Source: Ekhidna sp.
GTDB taxonomy: Bacteria > Bacteroidota > Bacteroidia > Cytophagales > Cyclobacteriaceae
Reading direction: 5' to 3'
Length of the DNA: 57,889 nt
Assembly (NCBI GenBank): GCA_014323825.1
Contig: JACONI010000058.1
Span: forward strand, 5,155 to 63,043
Position numbers and translations under genes: made by a program. Shown in pieces: positions 22,048 to 42,820 of this stretch (position 1 is its first letter; every line of letters begins with the position of its first letter). A model generated the notes under the pieces. It had not been told where the DNA came from. It was given only the letters and a program-made list of their open reading frames with translations, and did no database searches.

Positions 22048-25000
22048 TTATTCAGTAAAATTAACTGTGATAACTGCTGTGCTGGAATCACCATCGTCGT
22101 CTGAGACTGTTATTTTAACTAAGAAAGGCGACTTTGATACACCACCCTTATTAGCAGTATTTTCTGCACGGACCTGAAACTTATTCCTATCAACAATCTG
22201 AAACCAGCGAAAGAAATTTCTGATCCTATACGTCAGTGAACTTTCATTATCATCATCATCAGTGCCGTTAAGAACCGTGATTGGAGTGCCCTTAGAATCA
22301 GAGCTTACAGCTACATCAAATGTCTGATCCGCTAACACCGGCGCATCATTCACATCCGCAATGGTAATGGTGATATTCTGCGGGTCGCTGTTGTTCGTCC
22401 CGTCGTTGGCCGTTATCGTTATATTATATGTACGGTCCGTATTTTCATCTTGGGGATCTTCATAATTATTAGAACCGTCAACAAAGTGTAACTCAGCTGT
22501 ACCCGCACTTTCGTTGGCTGATTCGATCGTGAAATCATCCGAATCCGTTCCCCCGATAACGAATGTGATTGAACTTCCGTCGTCAGCGTCAGAGGCTTCT
22601 AAGAGCAGCCCTGTATATGAGATGTTTTCGTCCAAATTTATCGCAGCAGCTGATGACGTAATTGTCGGAACGTTATCATTCACATCCATAACGGTAACGG
22701 TGATAGCCTGCGTAACATCGTTCTCCCCGTCACTTGCCGTTACCACTACCTCATACATATTATTAGTGCCCATATCACCGGGATTTTCATAATCCGGTGC
22801 AGCAATGAAAGTCAATTGCCCGTTGTCTGAGTCAATTTGGAACAGGTCCCTATCCGCTCCTCCACTGACTGAATACTCGATCGATGCAGTCCCATCATCA
22901 TCGTCAGCCCTTACAGTCAATACCGTAGTCGTATTTTCCGGTACGTCTGCACTGGTACCCGAACTAAAAGCCGGACTGAACTCATTCACATCGTTCACCG
23001 TAATGGATAAGGTTGTTCTTACACTCATCTGTGGGCTTCCATTATCCGTAGCTACTACCTCAAGGTCGTAACTCGATTTGGTTTCAAAGTCGAGGCTCAT
23101 CCCTGCTGCAACTTTAATATTCCCATCCGAGTCTATATCGAAATCCGTATTATTATCTCCGGTGAGGGAGTAAGTCAGCATCTGCCCGTCATCGGGGTCT
23201 GTAGCTGTTACCGTTGTGATAGGAAGTGTATCATCCGGTGTAGCATCTTCATCCACCGATATTCCCGTAGTGCCGCCATTGTTAAACGTTGGTGCCCGAT
23301 TCGCCGGTGCTGCCGCAGTGACCATAATGGTGATATTTAACATGGCTGTCAGCGGAGTAGTAGCATCATCATCCGTAGCGGTTACGGTAAGAGTGACGTC
23401 TCCGGGATTAAGTGATCCATTATTATCAACGGCAATGACTCCGGTGGGGCTTATTTTAAAACCATCGTTTCCGGGATTGCCATCTGAGATGGCATACGTT
23501 GGCGTGCCGTCGGTATCGTCTTCATCCGTTGCAGTAACTGTCACCACCTGTGTATCTTGAGCGGCATCTTCAGCCACAGAAAGTGTTGCAGTTACCTCAG
23601 CAAACACGGGTGCCTCATTCACATCGTTCACCGTGATGGTGACCACACTCTCAGCTTTTCCCCCAGCTTCATCCGTAGCGACTACGGTAAGCATATAATC
23701 CTCCGTGCCCTCATGGTCAAGGGTGGCACCGCTTTTAACAGTGATTTGTCCCGAGGTGCTAACTATATCAAAATTACTATCAGCCACTTTGATGGAATAT
23801 CTAATTTCATTATCGTCACCATCAGAGTCGGTAGCCACAACCGGTGCCCCTACATTCCCCATTGTGACATTTTCATCTACACTGCGCGTTGCAGTGCCTC
23901 CCTCGTCAAACGTTGGTTTCGCATTGACCATCACATTAAACATGTCATTAACAGTACCTCCGTTATTGTCATTGGCCGTCACGGTGATGGTGGCGGTGCC
24001 TGTCCCTGCATACGTAATGACCAAGTTATTATTGTTTACATCTACAGTCACCACACCCGTAGTGCCACTGACCGCAGTGTAGGTCAGTTCATCGTTATCT
24101 GCGTCAGTGAATACAGAGGACAGGTCAAGGGTGATCGGATCAAAGCCTTCTGTTTCTTTCCGGTCAGCAATCTCGTTGGCTACCGTCGGGGCGTTGTTCC
24201 CGCTACCTTCATCTACAACATCCGTAACGGTAATGGTGATATCCTGCGGGTCGCTGGTGTTCACTCCGTCGTATGCCTCTACCTTTACCACATATTTATT
24301 ATCATCGGCCGCATCACCGCCCACATCAGTGGGATTTTCAAAATCAGGAGCCGACAGGAAAGTCAAAACTCCGCCAGTACTAAGACTGAATTTGCCATTG
24401 TCTGTTGTTCCTCCTGAGACGAAACGGAACGTGATTACTTCTCCTGTTCCGTCTGCGTCAGTGGCTGTTAGGGTCAGCACTGTAGTGGATGTAGAAGTGT
24501 TCTCCGGCACACTTGCCGTGGCACTTGAAGTAATTTCCGGTGCTTCATCATTCAGATCGTTCACCGTAATGGAGAAGGTGCGTGTTTTCTCAGATGGCGG
24601 GGTTCCATTATCCGTAGCTACTACGGTAAGGGTGTAATTCGAAGTGGTCTCAAAGTCAAGGCCGCTAGTTCCGACGGTAATTTGTCCCGACATTGCATCT
24701 ATTGAAAAATCATCAGAATTAGTTCCTCTAAGGGAGTAAGTCACATCCTGCCCTACATCATTGGCATTAGCCGTGAACTGCCTGACATTCGTATTCGCTG
24801 CAACACTTTCATCTAGAGTTTCTAATGCAGTGCTACCTGAGGTAAACGTTAGTGGCGTATTCGGTGCTACGACACTAATGGTGATATTTACCGTGGCTTG
24901 CCTCCTTGTGGCAACATCATCATCATCCGTAACGGTTACGGTGAGGTCATAATTAGTACCGGCGGCACCAAGGGTAGCCGAGTTTGAAACGGTAATCTGC

Positions 25001-26835
25001 CCATCATCATCTATTTCAAAATTACCATTACCAGTACCACTCAGAGTATAAGTCAGCGTCTGCCCGGTATCTGCGTCCGTAGCCGAAATCGCAGTCCCAA
25101 CTTCATCACCACCACTGGCATTTGCAGCTACGGTAAAGTCGATTGAAGCAACGTCTCCAATCATCGGATCGTGTTCATTCACATCGTTCACCGTAATGGC
25201 GAAGGTGACAGTGGCTGTTCCCCTATCTTCATCCGTAGCGGTTACGGTAAGGGTGTAACTCGAAGTGGTCTCAAAGTCAAGGCCGCCACTTCCAACGGTA
25301 ATTGCTCCCGTGGCCATATCTATTACAAAATCATTGTTACTATCACCGTTGGTGATGGCATAAGTGATGTTCGTATCTTCGCCATCTTCGTCCGTAGCTG
25401 TTAACGTTTTGACATCACTGTCTGACCCCACATCTTCATCCAGCGTTACCCCCAAAGTGCCGCCAGCTGCAAACTTTGGCGGAACATTCGGTGCCGTGAC
25501 ATTAATAGTAACTTCGGCCTCGGCTGTCAGCGGAGTAGGATTCTCATCATCACTGGCGGTTACGGTGAGGGTATACATGTCCCCATTCTTGCCGGTAAGG
25601 TCTTTTGCAACGGAAATTACTCCCGTATTTGTATCTATTTTAAAATCATCGTTGGTATTGCCGCCGGTAATTTCATAAGTCGGCGTGTCGGTATCGTCTT
25701 CATCCGTTGCACTCACCGTCACCCCTATCGGAACATCTACAGCGGTATTTTCAGGCACGTCCCGTGTATATGCATCAGTAGCAAACACGGGTGCCTCATT
25801 CACATCGTTCACCGTGATGGTGATAGCGGCCTGAACTGTCGTATTTGAACCGGCGGCATCCGTAGCGGTTACGGTAAGGGTGTAACTTCCCGTGCCCTCA
25901 TGGTCAAGGCTTTTTCCTTGTGCGATGGTAATTTGTCCGTTGTTATCTATTGCGAAAACATCGCCGGTATTTCCGCCGGTGATGGCATAAGTAATGGCAT
26001 CGCTCTCGGGGTCCGCAGCCTGAACGGCAGCCCCGACGTTACTTCCCGCAGCGGCATTCTCGGCTACTTCACGCATTGCATCGGCAAACGTTGGCGGCTG
26101 ATTCACTGCCGGTGCTGCCGTTGCCGTGACCGTAATGGTAACGGTGGCGTCATCTTTCAGCGGAGTAGGACTCTCATCATCACTGGCGGTTACGGTGAGG
26201 GTATAGGTGTCCCCGCCCTTGCCGACAAGGGATTTTGCAACGGCAATTAATCCCGAAGCTGCTATTTTAAAATCATCGTTGGTATTGCCTTTGGTGATTG
26301 CATAAGCCGGGGTGTCGGTATCGTCTTCATCCGTTGCTTTCACCGTCACCACGTTCTCATTTACAATGGCATTTTCAGCCACGTTCCCTGTATATGTATC
26401 AGCGGCAAACACGGGTGCTTCGTTTACATCATTAACGGTAACAGTCATTGTGGCCGCAGCCGCCAATTTCCCGGGGTCTTCTACCTGTACCGTAAGGCTG
26501 TAACTCCCCGTGGTCTCATGGTCAAGGTCGGCATTGGCTGCAACGGTAATCTGCCCATTGCCTCCGTTTATTGCAAAATAACCGTCGCCATTACCTGCGG
26601 TGATGGAATAGGTCAGTTTACCCTCCTCGGCATCCGTGGCCTTAACCATCCCGACCTGCGTGTCGGCAGCAGAGTTTTCATCTACGGCAAAATTTTGATT
26701 TTGAATTTCCGGTTTCTTGTTGGCCGGACTGTCATCATCTCCACAGGAGATGAAGAAGAGTGTCATTCCAATCGCTGCAACTGCATAAATGTACAGTATG
26801 CGCTTTTTTATTAGCTGAACTGTGTTCGGTTTCAT
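22048..26835 (-). CDS. Giant cadherin-repeat surface lipoprotein
   Basis: 1595 residues. A basic start and hydrophobic segment (YIYAVAAIGMTLFFISC) end in a lipobox, followed by GDDDSPANKK, an acidic sequence typical of surface-exported Bacteroidota lipoproteins. The rest is about 15 cadherin domains of ~100 residues, each closing with the ITVNDVNEAPVF type linker and carrying calcium-binding DEN, DxD and DVNE motifs. It ends at VNFTE with no T9SS sorting domain. Cadherin repeats suggest calcium-dependent adhesion or matrix binding at the cell surface. Internal repeat segments are nearly identical in DNA, allowing recombination between domains. Confidence 0.93.
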   Translation of the reverse strand: MKPNTVQLIKKRILYIYAVAAIGMTLFFISCGDDDSPANKKPEIQNQNFAVDENSAADTQVGMVKATDAEEGKLTYSITAGNGDGYFAINGGNGQITVAANADLDHETTGSYSLTVQVEDPGKLAAAATMTVTVNDVNEAPVFAADTYTGNVAENAIVNENVVTVKATDEDDTDTPAYAITKGNTNDDFKIAASGLIAVAKSLVGKGGDTYTLTVTASDDESPTPLKDDATVTITVTATAAPAVNQPPTFADAMREVAENAAAGSNVGAAVQAADPESDAITYAITGGNTGDVFAIDNNGQITIAQGKSLDHEGTGSYTLTVTATDAAGSNTTVQAAITITVNDVNEAPVFATDAYTRDVPENTAVDVPIGVTVSATDEDDTDTPTYEITGGNTNDDFKIDTNTGVISVAKDLTGKNGDMYTLTVTASDDENPTPLTAEAEVTINVTAPNVPPKFAAGGTLGVTLDEDVGSDSDVKTLTATDEDGEDTNITYAITNGDSNNDFVIDMATGAITVGSGGLDFETTSSYTLTVTATDEDRGTATVTFAITVNDVNEHDPMIGDVASIDFTVAANASGGDEVGTAISATDADTGQTLTYTLSGTGNGNFEIDDDGQITVSNSATLGAAGTNYDLTVTVTDDDDVATRRQATVNITISVVAPNTPLTFTSGSTALETLDESVAANTNVRQFTANANDVGQDVTYSLRGTNSDDFSIDAMSGQITVGTSGLDFETTSNYTLTVVATDNGTPPSEKTRTFSITVNDLNDEAPEITSSATASVPENTSTSTTVLTLTATDADGTGEVITFRFVSGGTTDNGKFSLSTGGVLTFLSAPDFENPTDVGGDAADDNKYVVKVEAYDGVNTSDPQDITITVTDVVDEGSGNNAPTVANEIADRKETEGFDPITLDLSSVFTDADNDELTYTAVSGTTGVVTVDVNNNNLVITYAGTGTATITVTANDNNGGTVNDMFNVMVNAKPTFDEGGTATRSVDENVTMGNVGAPVVATDSDGDDNEIRYSIKVADSNFDIVSTSGQITVKSGATLDHEGTEDYMLTVVATDEAGGKAESVVTITVNDVNEAPVFAEVTATLSVAEDAAQDTQVVTVTATDEDDTDGTPTYAISDGNPGNDGFKISPTGVIAVDNNGSLNPGDVTLTVTATDDDATTPLTAMLNITIMVTAAAPANRAPTFNNGGTTGISVDEDATPDDTLPITTVTATDPDDGQMLTYSLTGDNNTDFDIDSDGNIKVAAGMSLDFETKSSYDLEVVATDNGSPQMSVRTTLSITVNDVNEFSPAFSSGTSADVPENTTTVLTVRADDDDGTASIEYSVSGGADRDLFQIDSDNGQLTFIAAPDYENPGDMGTNNMYEVVVTASDGENDVTQAITVTVMDVNDNVPTITSSAAAINLDENISYTGLLLEASDADDGSSITFVIGGTDSDDFTIESANESAGTAELHFVDGSNNYEDPQDENTDRTYNITITANDGTNNSDPQNITITIADVNDAPVLADQTFDVAVSSDSKGTPITVLNGTDDDDNESSLTYRIRNFFRWFQIVDRNKFQVRAENTANKGGVSKSPFLVKITVSDDDGDSSTAVITVNFTE

Positions 26836-35011: not shown

Positions 35012-36376
35012 CTAGGAGGCAAACTTAAGGAGAAACTCGGTGCCCTCCCCGATTTGAGATTTGGCCGATATGTTTCCTCCGTGGTTTCTCATGATTTGTT
35101 TGGAGAGGCTCAGCCCGATACCGGACCCATTCTTCTTCGTGGTGAAAAATGGAATAAATATCTTTTTCAATGCTTCTTCTTCAATACCTGTTCCATTATC
35201 GGCGACGCGGATGAATGCTCCTCCGGAGGGGTAAGACATGGCAGTAATCGTCAGGGACTTATGCTCCTTTTCACCCTGCACCAATGCCTGTATTGCATTT
35301 TTTACAACGTTGATAATGACTTGCTCTATTTGTTCCTTGTCAATATTTATTGTGAGGTTCGGTTTTACTGAAACATCAACGATGATGCTGTTTACTTCAA
35401 TATCCTGCCTTAGAAGTAAAAGGACATGAGAGATAACTTCATCTACTTGAATACACTTGAAGTTGGGGAGCTTGATCCGAGTCATATTTCTAAAATCAGA
35501 AACAAACTTTATCAGGCTTTTGCTTCTATTATGAATCGTTTTCATTGAGAGGTAGAAGTCTTCTATCGTATCATTTTGAATCTGATTAATTTCGGAACCG
35601 TTTTGCAAAAAGTTATTTAGCTCTTTCTCCATCGTTTGGGCAAGTGAGGAAATAGGCGTTACCGAGTTCATGATTTCATGCGTAAGGACACGAATCAGAT
35701 TTTGCCATGCTTCCATTTCCTTTTCTTCAAGTTCCGACTGGATGTTTTGCAAGGAGACTAACTTGAAGGTCTTCTCTCTTAGAGATAGTTCAATGGCATA
35801 AACTGCAAGCTGTACTTCTTCATCATTTTTAGTGATCTTGACAAGATCACGACCACCTGTTTTCAGATCCCCGAACAATGCTGTAACATTGGGATGATCT
35901 CTTGAGATTTGCTTAATGTTTTTGACAAGGTTCATACCCAGTAATTTCCTGGCGGCATTATTCATGATCTGCACTTCTCCCCGCGCATCAAAGGTTATAA
36001 TTCCAATTCCAATGTGTTGAACGATGGTCTTCAGGTATTGATGCTGCGCCTCATCATCGGCTCGAATTTCTCCGAATTTCTTTAATATGCCGCTGAGGTC
36101 ATGGTAAAGCAGGTTTCTGCCGGACTTCCTTTTCTTCTCCGGGCGGGTATTGATGAAATCGTCATAATGAATGCTTTCAAGAAAATGAATAATCTCACGA
36201 TTTGATTTTTCCAAAAATGAATATAAATAATAAGTCTGTGCTATCAGTATAAAGAAAACCAGAAGTTTGGTAAAGAAATAAGCATCAGCGTAGTACAATG
36301 AGGTAAATAGAAGTATGGTTACAATCAATAATATCAGTCTTACAAGAAGCTGAAATCTGAAGGGTTTAAAGATCAT
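35012..36376 (-). CDS. NtrB-type sensor histidine kinase
   Basis: Start set at the ATG 36376, which begins MIFKPFRFQLLVRLILLIV and overlaps the regulator stop by 11 bp. About 454 residues: two N-terminal membrane helices, a PAS domain (IGIGIITFDARGEVQIMNNA), the H-box LTHEIMNSVTPISSLA (about 230), N-box VIINVVKNAIQAL, G1 VADNGTGI and G2 KKNGSGIGLSLSKQI. It would autophosphorylate on His and pass phosphate to the sigma-54 regulator encoded just upstream. Signal unknown. Confidence 0.93.
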   Translation of the reverse strand: MIFKPFRFQLLVRLILLIVTILLFTSLYYADAYFFTKLLVFFILIAQTYYLYSFLEKSNREIIHFLESIHYDDFINTRPEKKRKSGRNLLYHDLSGILKKFGEIRADDEAQHQYLKTIVQHIGIGIITFDARGEVQIMNNAARKLLGMNLVKNIKQISRDHPNVTALFGDLKTGGRDLVKITKNDEEVQLAVYAIELSLREKTFKLVSLQNIQSELEEKEMEAWQNLIRVLTHEIMNSVTPISSLAQTMEKELNNFLQNGSEINQIQNDTIEDFYLSMKTIHNRSKSLIKFVSDFRNMTRIKLPNFKCIQVDEVISHVLLLLRQDIEVNSIIVDVSVKPNLTINIDKEQIEQVIINVVKNAIQALVQGEKEHKSLTITAMSYPSGGAFIRVADNGTGIEEEALKKIFIPFFTTKKNGSGIGLSLSKQIMRNHGGNISAKSQIGEGTEFLLKFAS

Positions 36377-37745
36377 ATTTCTCCAATCTACGATACAAGG
36401 AAGCACGGGTGAGGCCTAGTTCTTCTGCTGCTTTTGAAAGGTTACCCTCGTATTTACTCACTACCTTTCGAATGATGGCCTTTTCCATGTCTTCCAAATT
36501 ATATGAATCCGGTTCGGGGCTGACATCGGCCTCCGGTTTTTGAGCGAGAAAGAAAACGTCCTCCGGCATCAATTGATTGTTATCACTCATGATGACCGCT
36601 CTTTCAATTGCATGTTGGAGTTCTCTGATGTTTCCCGGCCAGGGATACTTCCGTAGCTTGGAAACGGTAGAGGCTGCTACGCCGTCAATACTTTTCCTGT
36701 ATTTGTTTGCATACATTTTCACGAAATGGTTCGCAAGCATCTCCATATCTTCCATTCTTTCCCTTAGAGGAGGAAGTTGTATTTCTATCGTATTGATCCG
36801 GTACAATAAGTCCTGTCTGAAGGCATTTTCTTTAACCATTTCATAAACAGGCATATTGGCAGCACTAATCAATCTAATGTCGACCGGAATTTCCTGATGA
36901 GTACCAATTCGTGTGATTTTTCTACTCTGAATAGCTGTTAGGAGCTTAGACTGGAGCGGCGGGCTTAGGTTGCCGATTTCATCAAGGAAAAGCGTCCCTC
37001 CCGAAGCCACCTCAAACCTTCCCGCTCTGTCTTCTTTTGCATCGGTGAATGCCCCTTTTTTATGTCCGAAAAGCTCACTTTCAAACAAAGATTCGGTGAG
37101 TGCTCCCATATCAACGCCTATGAATGGCATGTCTCTTCGAAGCGATTTTTGGTGTATCGTGCGTGCAACCATCTCCTTGCCGGTACCGTTTTCACCCAGT
37201 ATCAAAACATTGGCATCGGTTGCAGCTACCTTATCAATGAGTTTAAATACTTTCCCGATGGCATCACTTTCTCCAATAATATCTTTAAATGCTTTGCTGA
37301 TATCAGCCTGTAAGGTCTTGCTCGTTTGTTTTAACTGGCTTACTTCTTTATAACTCTTCTTGAGTCGGGCTGCGCTTGACAGCGTTGCAAGCAATTTTTC
37401 ATTTTGCCATGGCTTCAAAACAAAATCCGTAGCACCTGCTTTCAATGCACTTACAGCCATTTCAACGTCGCCAAATGCAGTGATTAGGATGACAACCGCC
37501 TGAGAATCTCTTTCTAATATTTGTTCCAGCCAGTAAAACCCTTCCTTACCACTGGTGGTGTCCTGACTGAAATTCATATCAAGTAAGATGACATCAAAAG
37601 CATGATTATTCAACAGGAAGGGAATCCTTCTTGGGTCTTTCTCAATCACTACCTCTTTGATGTGTCTTTTAAGGAGCATTTTCGCAGCTAAAAGGACATC
37701 TTCATCGTCATCAACAATTAAGATTTTATCTACTTTTTCTTCCAT
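36366..37745 (-). CDS. Sigma-54-dependent response regulator (NtrC family)
   Basis: 459 residues in the order receiver domain (phospho-acceptor Asp56 in DVILLDMNF), AAA+ domain with Walker A GENGTGKE (about 180), Walker B GGTLFLDEIGNL, and a C-terminal Fis-type HTH (NLSKAAEELGLTRASLYRRL). The sigma-54 contact loop reads GAFTDA, not the canonical GAFTGA. It would activate sigma-54 promoters; targets are unknown, though the adjacent efflux operon is a candidate. Confidence 0.95.
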   Translation of the reverse strand: MEEKVDKILIVDDDEDVLLAAKMLLKRHIKEVVIEKDPRRIPFLLNNHAFDVILLDMNFSQDTTSGKEGFYWLEQILERDSQAVVILITAFGDVEMAVSALKAGATDFVLKPWQNEKLLATLSSAARLKKSYKEVSQLKQTSKTLQADISKAFKDIIGESDAIGKVFKLIDKVAATDANVLILGENGTGKEMVARTIHQKSLRRDMPFIGVDMGALTESLFESELFGHKKGAFTDAKEDRAGRFEVASGGTLFLDEIGNLSPPLQSKLLTAIQSRKITRIGTHQEIPVDIRLISAANMPVYEMVKENAFRQDLLYRINTIEIQLPPLRERMEDMEMLANHFVKMYANKYRKSIDGVAASTVSKLRKYPWPGNIRELQHAIERAVIMSDNNQLMPEDVFFLAQKPEADVSPEPDSYNLEDMEKAIIRKVVSKYEGNLSKAAEELGLTRASLYRRLEKYDL

Positions 37746-39324: not shown

Positions 39325-40655
39325 TTTTTCTTTCCGGTTAATGAAGGGATCTCATCCTCATAAAGCGTTGCAGGAAAACCATTCATGTTTCGCCAGATCT
39401 CATACCAGATAGGTACATCATGAAGCATAACCCAGCCCTTTGCGCCTGATCCGAGCCGAAGTTGGTCGGGCCAGGGCTCATCTTCTTTATCCGGCTTTAC
39501 AATTATCCGAAAAAGCCCATTTTGATTTTGTACACGGTCTATGATGGCTACTTCTCCTCCAAAAGTTCCGATAGACGCATTAGCCCAGCCGGAAAAGGCC
39601 AAAGCAGGCCACCCGTCAAATTCAACACGTACCTTTCTGCCCACGCTGAGTAATGGAATATCCATCGCTTTGATGTACATCTCGAAAGCAATATCTTCAG
39701 ACTGCGGTAAAATAGTAGCTACGGCATCACCTTCTTTAATCGTTTCACCTAAGCCCACTTTTACGGCTTGAACAAGGTATCCTGACTGAGGTGCTATGAT
39801 TTGATACTGAGACTGCCTGACTTTAACATTGGTGAGCTCGTTTTCCATTTTTGAAATCTCCGCTCTGGTTTCATTCAGGCTCGCTATGGTTTCATTCAGA
39901 TCAGACTGGGCCTTGCTGATTTTATCCGTGTATTCTGCATCTATAGATGCTAACTCAAGATTTGCGTTTGCCAAATCCGCTTTTCGTTGTAACCATTCAT
40001 TTTCCGCTTTTAAGAGTTTTGCGTTGCTTGCCTGATACTTGGTTTCAATTTCCTGATATTTAGTAAGTGTGATGTTACCGGCATCAAACCGATTTTTATT
40101 TCTTCCAAACATACTCTCCGCATTGGTGAAGTTGACCTTTTCTGCCAGATAAGCTAAGCTGTCAGCCTCCTGCTTAAGTTCAGCTTGTCTAAGTTTATTC
40201 CGGGCTTGTGAGTTTTTTGCAATAAGGGCATTCTGCAACGCTTGAATTTGCATTCGCAAAGCTGCTGTCTTGTTTTCTTTTGCTAAGCCGGCATTTCTTT
40301 TTGCAGTGAGCTGCTCTTCCATTCTGGGAACGATGTCCGGATCGAAAAACTTATCCTTGATCTCTGAAATGGTCAATATAGTATCCCCCGCATTTACGTA
40401 ATCACCTTCAATGATATACCATTTGACAATTCTGCCCGCAATCGCAGACTCAACCATCTGCGGTCGATTTTCAGGGCTGAGGGCGGTAAGTTTTCCATTA
40501 CCCCTTATGTTTTGCTGCCACGGCAGGAAAAGGAAGAGGATGAATATAGCAACGATTATGATAAGCACTTTAGCAACCGCTCTCCCGATTTCAGGAGTTT
40601 TTAGGGTTCGAAGCGAATAGAGTTGTGACTCTGCCAGTTTATCAATGTTATTCAT
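39321..40655 (-). CDS. HlyD-family membrane-fusion protein
   Basis: 444 residues. One N-terminal membrane helix (VLIIIVAIFILFLFLPW) then the lipoyl-like barrel half AIAGRIVKWYIIEGDYVNAG, a long coiled-coil hairpin (about 110-270), and the second lipoyl half QYQIIAPQSGYLVQAVKVG, with a C-terminal beta domain. It bridges the ABC transporter in the inner membrane to TolC. The stop and start codons of the operon members overlap, so expression is coupled. Confidence 0.94.
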   Translation of the reverse strand: MNNIDKLAESQLYSLRTLKTPEIGRAVAKVLIIIVAIFILFLFLPWQQNIRGNGKLTALSPENRPQMVESAIAGRIVKWYIIEGDYVNAGDTILTISEIKDKFFDPDIVPRMEEQLTAKRNAGLAKENKTAALRMQIQALQNALIAKNSQARNKLRQAELKQEADSLAYLAEKVNFTNAESMFGRNKNRFDAGNITLTKYQEIETKYQASNAKLLKAENEWLQRKADLANANLELASIDAEYTDKISKAQSDLNETIASLNETRAEISKMENELTNVKVRQSQYQIIAPQSGYLVQAVKVGLGETIKEGDAVATILPQSEDIAFEMYIKAMDIPLLSVGRKVRVEFDGWPALAFSGWANASIGTFGGEVAIIDRVQNQNGLFRIIVKPDKEDEPWPDQLRLGSGAKGWVMLHDVPIWYEIWRNMNGFPATLYEDEIPSLTGKKK

Positions 40656-42820
40656 CAGTAAATATCTTTTAGAATATCTTCTTTTTTAATCAGCTCATCA
40701 AATGCTCCGATAGCCTTCACCACTCCATCATCCAGAAATAATACTTTATCACAGGCGGCCATCACCAAAGGATCATTTGAAACAACGATCAGAGTCCATT
40801 TCTTGGTTGCATTAGTGAGCATTTCAATGAGTTTCAATCTTTCGCCCTTAGTGAAATTGTTGAAAAAATCGTTGAGGATGAGCATTGCCGGACGCTTGGC
40901 CAGACACCTTGCCAATACCAGCTTATTAACAAAAGAAGAGGAGAAACCTTTACCCCCGCTCAGCATTTCAGTATTTAAACCATCCGCAAGTTGATTGATT
41001 TCATCCATCAACCCTACTTCATTCATTGCGTTCAGAGCATCATTGATATCGGAAGTGGGTTTGCCAACCAGGATATTATCAAGTAGCGAACCCTCGAAGA
41101 TAGCCTCCTGGGACACATTTTTCCCGATTTTGTCCCTTATGTAGGTAGCATCCAAATCTCTCAGTGAGTAACCATTATAGGTCATAACTCCTTTAAAATT
41201 CAGATGAATACCGGCTATGATATTGGTAAGTGTTGTTTTACCCGCACCGCCTCCGCCGCTTATGCAAAGAGAGCCTCCTTTCGGAATATCAACAGAAATG
41301 TTCTTTAGAGAAGGAGAAGTTGCCCCGGGATAGGTATATGATACGTCATCCAATACAACGTGATACCCGTCTTCAAGTTGAGAAACGGGAATATCTATAC
41401 CGCCCGTGGACTCAAGCGGAATATCTGTGACATGAGAAATTTTATCCACTGCAGTAAGCATGTCATAGACCACATCCATGTACATGATGATCTTTTCCAC
41501 AGAGGCAAGCACAAGGATGATGATTACCTCGGATGCGACAAACTGACCTAAAGTTATCTCCCGTTGAACCACCAGTATCGTTCCCAATATCAACAGCCCG
41601 CCCGTTATTACGGCTTTAAATAACAGGATAAATGAATATTGTGAAATAAGCACTCTGAAGTGCTTCCCTCGGTTTTCGAGGTAGTTATTTACTAAATAGT
41701 CCGTTTTTCGTAAAGGCAAAACGGTATTTCCCGCTAATTTGAATGAATACAGCGTTCTTGCCATTTCTTCAAGCCAATACACGACTTTGTATTTGTATTT
41801 GGATTCCTTTATTGAACTTTTCAACCCCTTAGGCCCGGTCAGGTAAAAAATCAGAAACAACAGCCCCAAAAGACCTAACCCGAATACAACAAAAAACGGG
41901 TGATAAAATGAAAGTAACAACAGTCCGAAAAATATCTGGATAATACCTGTGGACAGATCAATTAAAATTTTGGGAAGGCCCTTTTGAAGAGTCAGCACGT
42001 CAAAAAAGCGGTTCATTAACTCCGGCATGTGGAGGTTGAGCACTTCCTCCATTTTAATTCGGGGAACCCTGAATGCAAACTCAAAAGCTGCTTTCGTGAA
42101 GACCCTCCTTTGTAAATACTCTACTATTGTGATTTGGAGTACCTGTAATATACCGGTTCCTAAAGTTCCTGCTATGATTAAGGTAATGAGCAAATAAACG
42201 GAACTGAAGACTACCCCGCCCGATATCAACTCTACAGCCGCTTGGATACCTAATGGCAGCGTTAAACTGACCAAACCGATGAGTGCGGCATAGACATAAA
42301 CAAAAAAGATATCTTTTCTATCTGAAGAAAGAAGTTGAAACAATCTGCGGAGAGGTGATATCTTTTCCCCTTCATCTCTCCCATTGATAAAACTTTGATA
42401 TGCAAAACATGAAAGCGTTAAGATTTCTCCTTTCGAATTAAGAGAAAAATTAATGTTCTCTATTCCTTCTATTTCAACTTTCCGCATTTCTCCTTGAGGA
42501 GTAATAAATTCAAGAACGGTCTTTCTTCTCTCCTGTCGGATAAACGCCGGATGAAATCCATCTTGTGCTATGAAGACAATCAGAGGTGTCCGGTTATCTG
42601 TCATGAGTTCCTTGAGCGAACTTCTGTCAAGGTATTTTTCTATCAGTACGATACCCGCTTCATTGCCGGCTTCAATAAAATCTCTCTGGAATTCAAAAAT
42701 CTCTTCGTTAGCATAGCTTCTTGAGATGATATCTACCTTATTCAGGTTAGAAATATTCAAATCGATCTTCAGTTTGCTGGCACACTCTTGAAGACATCTG
42801 ATAATCTGCTGATTGTTCAT
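40655..42820 (-). CDS. Type I secretion-like ABC transporter with degenerate ATPase motifs
   Basis: 721 residues: an N-terminal cytoplasmic domain (1-160) in the position of a C39-like domain, six membrane helices, and one ABC domain. Walker A is intact (GGGGAGKTT, about 523) and the Q-loop is present (NVSQEAIFEGSLLDNI), but the signature reads LSGGKGFSSS, Walker B reads LILND where LILDE is expected, and the H-loop position reads VSND. Thus the Asp/Glu pair and the switch His appear replaced. No second ABC gene is in the operon. It would export a peptide or small molecule through HlyD/TolC, or have a regulatory, low-turnover role. Confidence 0.9.
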   Translation of the reverse strand: MNNQQIIRCLQECASKLKIDLNISNLNKVDIISRSYANEEIFEFQRDFIEAGNEAGIVLIEKYLDRSSLKELMTDNRTPLIVFIAQDGFHPAFIRQERRKTVLEFITPQGEMRKVEIEGIENINFSLNSKGEILTLSCFAYQSFINGRDEGEKISPLRRLFQLLSSDRKDIFFVYVYAALIGLVSLTLPLGIQAAVELISGGVVFSSVYLLITLIIAGTLGTGILQVLQITIVEYLQRRVFTKAAFEFAFRVPRIKMEEVLNLHMPELMNRFFDVLTLQKGLPKILIDLSTGIIQIFFGLLLLSFYHPFFVVFGLGLLGLLFLIFYLTGPKGLKSSIKESKYKYKVVYWLEEMARTLYSFKLAGNTVLPLRKTDYLVNNYLENRGKHFRVLISQYSFILLFKAVITGGLLILGTILVVQREITLGQFVASEVIIILVLASVEKIIMYMDVVYDMLTAVDKISHVTDIPLESTGGIDIPVSQLEDGYHVVLDDVSYTYPGATSPSLKNISVDIPKGGSLCISGGGGAGKTTLTNIIAGIHLNFKGVMTYNGYSLRDLDATYIRDKIGKNVSQEAIFEGSLLDNILVGKPTSDINDALNAMNEVGLMDEINQLADGLNTEMLSGGKGFSSSFVNKLVLARCLAKRPAMLILNDFFNNFTKGERLKLIEMLTNATKKWTLIVVSNDPLVMAACDKVLFLDDGVVKAIGAFDELIKKEDILKDIY

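Follow-up and report, generated by a model that had tools for sequence, protein, structure and literature searches.

The window analyzed here is a 57,889-nucleotide stretch of an Ekhidna sp. contig (JACONI010000058.1, positions 5,155 to 63,043), the reverse strand of which carries an export operon whose ATP-binding cassette (ABC) exporter has a degenerate nucleotide-binding domain (NBD). The ABC gene is followed by those for an adaptor and a TolC-like channel, the ends of the three genes touching or overlapping, and then by genes for an NtrC-type regulator and a kinase (Table 1); the order ABC-adaptor-channel recurs in all 40 of the relatives' loci compared. The ABC protein has the HlyB-like layout of a C39-like domain, a membrane domain and an NBD, and Pfam recognizes ABC_tran at 54.3 bits and ABC_membrane at 28.2 bits (cut-off 28). 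No second ABC gene was found within the operon among the open reading frames (ORFs) of the window and their Pfam matches, in agreement with an earlier sequence-only reading of this DNA, which had called the gene the sole ABC gene of an export operon.

Table 1. Features of the export operon and its surroundings, in window coordinates.
Feature	Coordinates	Strand	Basis
ABC exporter with degenerate NBD, 721 amino acids (aa), ATG start	40655..42820	-	ORF; Pfam ABC_tran and ABC_membrane
N-terminal C39-peptidase-like domain, residues 1-148	42377..42820	-	Separate model and VIA-align
Transmembrane domain, residues 156-470, best-conserved part of the family	41411..42355	-	Family alignments, model
Putative coupling helix 2, residues 357-363 (including F360, K361)	41732..41752	-	Model helix between the TM4 and TM5 helices
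Charged residues inside transmembrane helix (TM) 6: E431, E442, K443	41492..41530	-	Hydrophobic 19-mer, residues 427-445
Degenerate NBD, residues 485-721	40658..41368	-	Pfam, family alignments, AlphaFold2 model, structure comparison
Walker A, intact, residues 522-530 (including K528)	41231..41257	-	Family alignments
Signature position, residues 626-630, FSSSF versus LSGGQ	40931..40945	-	P-glycoprotein and family alignments
Walker B, residues 647-651, LILND-type versus hhhDE	40868..40882	-	P-glycoprotein and family alignments
H-loop position, residue 682, Asn versus His	40775..40777	-	P-glycoprotein and family alignments
HlyD-like periplasmic adaptor (membrane fusion protein), 444 aa	39321..40655	-	Pfam HlyD_3, 44.9 bits
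TolC-like outer-membrane channel, 478 aa	37888..39324	-	Pfam OEP, 3.8e-35
NtrC-type sigma-54 response regulator	36366..37745	-	Pfam
Sensor histidine kinase	35012..36406	-	Pfam HATPase_c
TetR-type regulator gene remnant, 42 codons	42833..42961	-	Sequence reading; TetR_N in relatives' copies

The sequence-only reading also held that Walker A and the Q-loop are kept, that the Walker B Asp-Glu pair reads Asn-Asp and that the H-loop His reads Asn, and alignments to P-glycoprotein and to the family bear this out: the Q-loop Gln is Q571, N650 occupies the Walker B Asp position, D651 that of the catalytic Glu and N682 that of the H-loop His. The same alignments led us to reject a placement of the catalytic motifs elsewhere in the protein, and no Glu and His came to light at other positions. 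The signature had been described as lacking its usual Gln; its degeneracy stands, and the motif chosen does not, because LSGGK (about residues 620-624), which was probably taken for the signature, is displaced by F626-S-S-S-F630 as the segment aligning under LSGGQ, a more degenerate sequence than had been claimed. When 20 ordinary ABC exporters, taken from genomes of the NBD-less relatives described below, were read in this way, the Walker A Lys, Walker B Asp and His were each present in 20/20 and the catalytic position was Glu in 11 and Asp in 9. The motif changes in the window protein are conserved across its family and are therefore not chance.

An AlphaFold2 model of the full chain, computed from the window protein and 77 named relatives, has a mean predicted local distance difference test score (pLDDT) of 88.8 and a predicted template-modeling score of 0.81. 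Foldseek ranks HlyB (8dck_A, 724 columns) first for this model, SbmA is not among the 50 matches listed, and the membrane domain has the ABC exporter fold, with VIA-align Z scores of about 30 to ABCB1, MsbA and TM287/288. The model helix 357-363 sits between helices 308-355 and 368-418 (TM4 and TM5) and is taken as coupling helix 2. A separate model of residues 1-150 (pLDDT 91.1) aligns with HlyB 7sgr_A (Z 11.5, root-mean-square deviation (rmsd) 4.3, 124 aligned), the ComA peptidase 5xe9_A (Z 10.6, rmsd 3.1, 123 aligned) and the isolated C39-like domain 3zua (Z 10.4), where a Pfam scan of the N-terminal domain gave no match. Its only nearly invariant columns are F44, P79, F83 and P91, and since no Cys or His is conserved the domain is taken as non-catalytic; it is missing from the short and NBD-less forms of the family.

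Homologues are found in 82/98 genomes of the window's family (E 1e-40), 92/118 of the order and 76/296 of the phylum (both E 1e-90), and 191/395 of the class (membrane-domain profile, E 1e-60). Among the named carriers are Ekhidna, Fulvivirga, Pontibacter, Siphonobacter, Salegentibacter, Saprospiraceae, Flavobacteriales and some Gemmatimonadota, and the operon family also occurs on plasmids of Persicobacter, Aureibacter, Riemerella and sphingomonads. The homologue of Ekhidna lutea (L189) is 77% identical to the window protein, and L107 is an example of a relative whose motifs are intact. Among 151 homologues above the search cut-offs, collected by membrane domain and not by motif (147 distinct, four pairs having an identical C-terminus), the Walker A Lys is kept in 140, the Walker B Asp in 31, the catalytic Glu in 10 and the His in four, with Glu and His joined in a single protein. 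Asn-Asp replaces Asp-Glu in 49/151, the branch around the window, and 38 of these 49 also have Asn for His; LILND and SNDP are conserved within this branch. Asp-Glu is present in all 12 relatives from other classes of the phylum, 10 of which have the His too. As aligned, the degenerate hydrolysis site is thus a conserved trait of a distinct family, as the sequence-only reading had anticipated for the case of conservation in relatives.

Sequence features of nucleotide binding have outlasted those of hydrolysis in much of this family. The residue after the Walker A Lys is Ser or Thr in 118/151 and the A-loop position is aromatic in 144/151 (Tyr 91, Phe 53), and the NBD of the window's branch is under purifying selection, with a ratio of nonsynonymous to synonymous substitution rates (dN/dS) of 0.06 in one pair (L127/L152). 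These features, with the Walker A Lys, are what would be expected of an exporter powered by ATP binding or by a slow ATPase, in which the NBDs dimerize on ATP, one stroke follows each binding event, slow hydrolysis or exchange resets the cycle and any NBD-less protein is a side branch of changed function; ATP binding alone has been reported to power translocation by TmrAB (PMC13040083). We consider this account unlikely, for the signature, Walker B Asp, catalytic Glu and His are all altered together, the NBD is deleted in 71 loci, and the Walker A Lys has gone in further branches: it is lost in L098, L118 with L206, L205, three Gemmatimonadota loci and two sphingomonad loci (105 rows), amounting with the NBD-less clade to at least six changes on the tree. 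The Aureibacter protein (L232) has no recognizable Walker A, though it was scored as keeping the Lys in the 105-row count. Slow hydrolysis, one of the modes suggested by the sequence-only reading, cannot account for relatives that lack the NBD or Walker A; weak hydrolysis by the window protein itself is possible, and so is the nucleotide-gated exporter suggested alongside it, for those members that keep Walker A, the window protein included. Two side observations concern the decay. In the Gemmatimonadota copies L179, L183 and L185 the H-loop His is still there and the Walker A Lys is replaced by Glu or Ala, which makes for a different order of decay. The ABC-HlyD-TolC operons on pNL2 of Novosphingobium aromaticivorans and on a plasmid of Sphingobium baderi (L229, L231) each encode an ABC protein without Walker A, Walker B and H-loop; in N. 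aromaticivorans DSM 12444 a degenerate copy of the operon spans SARO_RS19820 to SARO_RS19810.

Complete loss of the NBD in relatives is our main result and goes beyond what the window sequence alone shows. The first sign of it came from the order and phylum searches, some of whose matches were frames of about 340 aa that covered just the membrane domain, and such loci were fetched with their flanks from the order, phylum and class and from follow-up family and genus samples. In 71 loci of 70 genomes the membrane-domain gene encodes 329-465 aa and the NBD is gone. The adaptor gene shares the strand of the membrane-domain gene in 71/71, at a distance of -41 to +118 bp, the TolC gene is present in 70/71 with the remaining locus at a contig end, and no NBD gene stands between the membrane-domain and adaptor genes in any of the 71. 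NBD-less genes occur in 27/81 genomes of one family, 28/61 of one genus and 12/101 of a family in another order, prevalences taken only from these three samples, which were drawn around NBD-less genomes; three more of the 71 came from the order sample, and no prevalence is drawn from 58 of the fetched loci, which were chosen mostly for short frames. Sixteen NBD-less rows form one clade (support 99) nested in the degenerate-NBD clade (support 97), and on a 159-row tree one change explains all 71 NBD-less rows, which span four family-level groups; the trees are quick searches rooted by us on intact-motif relatives, the 159-row tree under LG+G4 without a mixture. Two candidates were kept outside the count: the gene of G708 (L199) is ended by the contig end, and that of G998 (L289), at a contig edge, carries part of an NBD. 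Some genomes hold more than one copy, namely G167 (L089, L092), with both NBD-less and NBD-bearing operons, and G891 (L253, L254), with two NBD-less copies and one longer one.

Lost domains and motifs, together with the TetR remnant upstream of the window's ABC gene, could be read as decay, the genes being pseudogenes on their way out. We give this explanation almost no weight, because the 71 genes are intact, remain in their operons and form one clade across four family-level groups, and because they are under purifying selection, with dN/dS of 0.04, 0.08 and 0.15 in the three of five NBD-less pairs that had usable dS (from a sample of 12 pairs, two left out, with dS saturated in many). Eight NBD-less rows retain 51-71% membrane-domain identity to L079.

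The sequence-only reading had also proposed that the exporter might work with another ABC protein, and in the same vein a partner ABC protein or separate NBD encoded elsewhere might supply ATPase activity in trans. Other ABC exporters are present in the 15 genomes searched, the window's included, and in L256 the family NBD is a separate adjoining gene. Against these stand several results that weaken the proposal and make such a partner very improbable. Beside the operon there is no family ABC gene except its own, in the window as in the loci compared; no second member of the family turned up in the window's genome; there are relatives with no NBD at all; and a profile search of 13 of the 70 NBD-less genomes found no free family NBD, the profile reaching at best 191 bits, the level of ordinary exporters, where the window's own NBD scores 307 bits and that of its nearest relative 316. 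A second, degenerate copy in G167, one of the 13 genomes, scored 253 bits. We therefore rejected relocation of the NBD within those genomes. A split NBD in the NBD-less operons was likewise rejected, L256 being the only locus with one and excluded from the 71; there the NBD and membrane-domain genes share 25 bp, which may reflect either a split or a sequencing frameshift.

The putative docking segment for the NBD is eroded where the domain is gone, a further argument against a partner in trans. We compared 32 ten-residue blocks of the membrane domain between the 151 NBD-bearing rows and 16 of the 71 NBD-less rows, the set also used for the buried charges below. Residues 361-370, which begin within coupling helix 2 and extend past it, agree with the family consensus at 0.06 in the NBD-less rows versus 0.65 in the others, the lowest of the 32 blocks, the next-lowest in the NBD-less rows being 321-330 at 0.19. 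Position 361 is Lys in 142/151 of the family, in 12/12 relatives with mostly intact motifs and in 18/20 ordinary exporters; it is Arg in 16/16 NBD-less rows and also in L118, L205 and L206, which lost Walker A.

Six charges are nearly invariant with or without the NBD and lie in or near the ends of hydrophobic stretches: E431, E442 and K443 in TM6, D288 in TM3, K402 in TM5 and E234 near the cytoplasmic end of TM2. In the 151 degenerate homologues, E431 is Glu in 150 and Asp in one, E442 is Glu in 149 and Asp in two, and K443 is Lys in 150; the commonest residues at the six positions are uncharged, Glu at the D288 position in five aside, in 20 ordinary exporters, comprising 18 of the motif controls and two exporters of the window's genome. 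Were the membrane domain a passive or substrate-driven conduit, serving as a gated pore or as an anchor for the adaptor and TolC with export running downhill or pushed by something else, one could understand why the motor was lost with all other parts retained, and why the coupling-helix-1 segment persists with nothing left to couple to. Yet these charges within membrane helices are as invariant as any residue of the protein, and we regard a passive conduit as quite unlikely.

With the motor decayed, the NBD deleted and the pump kept, transport is taken to be independent of ATP hydrolysis, and we consider it reasonably probable that the family is an ABC exporter without an ATP-hydrolysis drive, presumably ion-coupled in the manner of SbmA, with its stages of decay still visible and an energy source that we infer. 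On this view the gene product, built like HlyB, would form the pump at the inner membrane in a three-part channel (ABC, adaptor, TolC), and its ancestors would have run on ATP. The catalytic Glu, the H-loop His and the signature, which make up the machinery of hydrolysis, would have decayed in this lineage, with Walker A following in some branches, and one branch would have lost the whole NBD with its coupling-helix-2 docking segment. Energy would come from an ion gradient, most likely of protons, by way of the buried charges E431, E442, K443, D288, K402 and E234; ethidium transport by NBD-less MsbA has been reported with a pH gradient (PMC4979069), and that report and the buried charges together make proton coupling the preferred inference. 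In the window protein the NBD seems still capable of nucleotide binding, and its probable role is to gate or stabilize the dimer.

Several observations weigh against an ion-driven pump. The window protein itself retains an NBD with Walker A, and might hydrolyze weakly; the NBD is well conserved in its branch and so must do something. The coupling-helix-1 segment and the stretch after it (E267, N270-D274, K280) are kept without an NBD, where SbmA is described as having lost its coupling helices (PMC13316013). Most intact-motif relatives share the buried charges, ComA has a Glu at the place of E442, and 5/20 controls have an acidic residue, Glu, at the D288 position. Because they are shared by intact-motif relatives, the charges need not mark ion coupling and would be a pre-existing feature, which is how the SbmA authors regard a partial glutamate ladder in YddA (PMC13316013). 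The argument is, finally, one from sequence and a structural model.

Compared with known systems, the family shares with exporters of the HlyB/PCAT1/ComA type its whole-chain layout and fold, its C39-like domain and an operon with HlyD- and TolC-like partners; it differs in that the window protein is without the catalytic Glu, the H-loop His and LSGGQ, and in having relatives without an NBD altogether. NCBIfam scores of 150.5 bits for LssB (cut-off 693.1) and 121.1 for HlyB (cut-off 725.55) fall far short. We regard the protein as a variant of HlyB-like exporters by fold, and do not file it as a working member because its Walker B, H-loop and signature depart from theirs. Heterodimeric exporters such as TM287/288, TmrAB and TAP have also lost a catalytic Glu, often with changes in the H-loop (PMC7756269), but they keep one good site, whereas the sole ABC gene of this operon has none. 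The membrane domains of NBD-truncated MsbA and LmrA have been reported to move substrate by themselves with an ion gradient (PMC4979069); those are laboratory constructs, whereas the truncation here is natural and kept.

The peptide importers SbmA and BacA (SLiPT) offer a parallel to the ion-driven pump proposed here. SbmA is a proton-driven transporter that, as its authors speculate, descends from an NBD-bearing ABC protein separated from its NBD, and the NBD-less clade resembles it in an ABC-exporter-type membrane domain without an NBD, in the loss of coupling-helix sequence and in buried acidic residues, which may or may not correspond to the glutamate ladder that couples SbmA to protons (PMC13316013). 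Unlike SbmA, the present proteins belong to an exporter operon with an adaptor and TolC and group by sequence with exporters of the NHLM/ComA/PCAT type, the window protein has an NBD and both coupling helices in the model, and relatives with a degenerate NBD survive, which the part of the SbmA report available does not describe for SbmA (PMC13316013). The SbmA Pfam model gave no match for the window protein (E 0.001) or for the NBD-less L079 and L090 (E 1). By analogy, the window's family, though not a member of the SbmA family, may have an SbmA-like mode of action. A literature search with limited terms, covering titles and the openings of abstracts, returned no exporter from this kind of operon with a degenerate or missing NBD, the SbmA paper (PMC13316013) apart.

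For the question of how a primary pump can turn into a secondary one, the family offers living bacteria that share the operon and stand at different stages, in which the losses of catalysis, binding, the domain and its docking site can be compared one by one. We judge it just on the probable side that one operon family holds a series from ATP-driven to ion-driven export, running from an intact motor through a binding-only NBD and an NBD without Walker A to proteins with neither NBD nor coupling-helix-2 motif, each of them with an adaptor and TolC to feed. If so, and with the same degree of assurance, since the two form a joint claim, the family would represent a class of tripartite export pumps that derive from ABC exporters, work without ATP and have an origin separate from that of SbmA. 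EmrAB-TolC and related tripartite pumps of the major facilitator superfamily (MFS) likewise have an adaptor and TolC fed by an ion-driven inner-membrane pump, one that is MFS and not ABC-derived. Our results also suggest that the annotation "ABC transporter ATP-binding protein" has been given, in many Bacteroidota and in some Gemmatimonadota and sphingomonads, to genes that do not encode ATPases.

In the clustering of neighborhoods, a TetR-type gene belongs to 14/20 long-form loci. It precedes the ABC gene in relatives, and in L059-L062, where it is full-length, its coordinates overlap the ABC start; Pfam confirms TetR_N in the L060 and L079 copies. A TetR-type neighbor is more in keeping with an efflux-type system than with protein secretion. 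The NtrC-type regulator and kinase adjoin the operon in 6/20 long-form loci, and in two linked loci, L074 and L077, the pair is on the opposite strand. Elsewhere in the window, a large ORF of 1595 aa (22048..26835, reverse strand) could be a surface protein.

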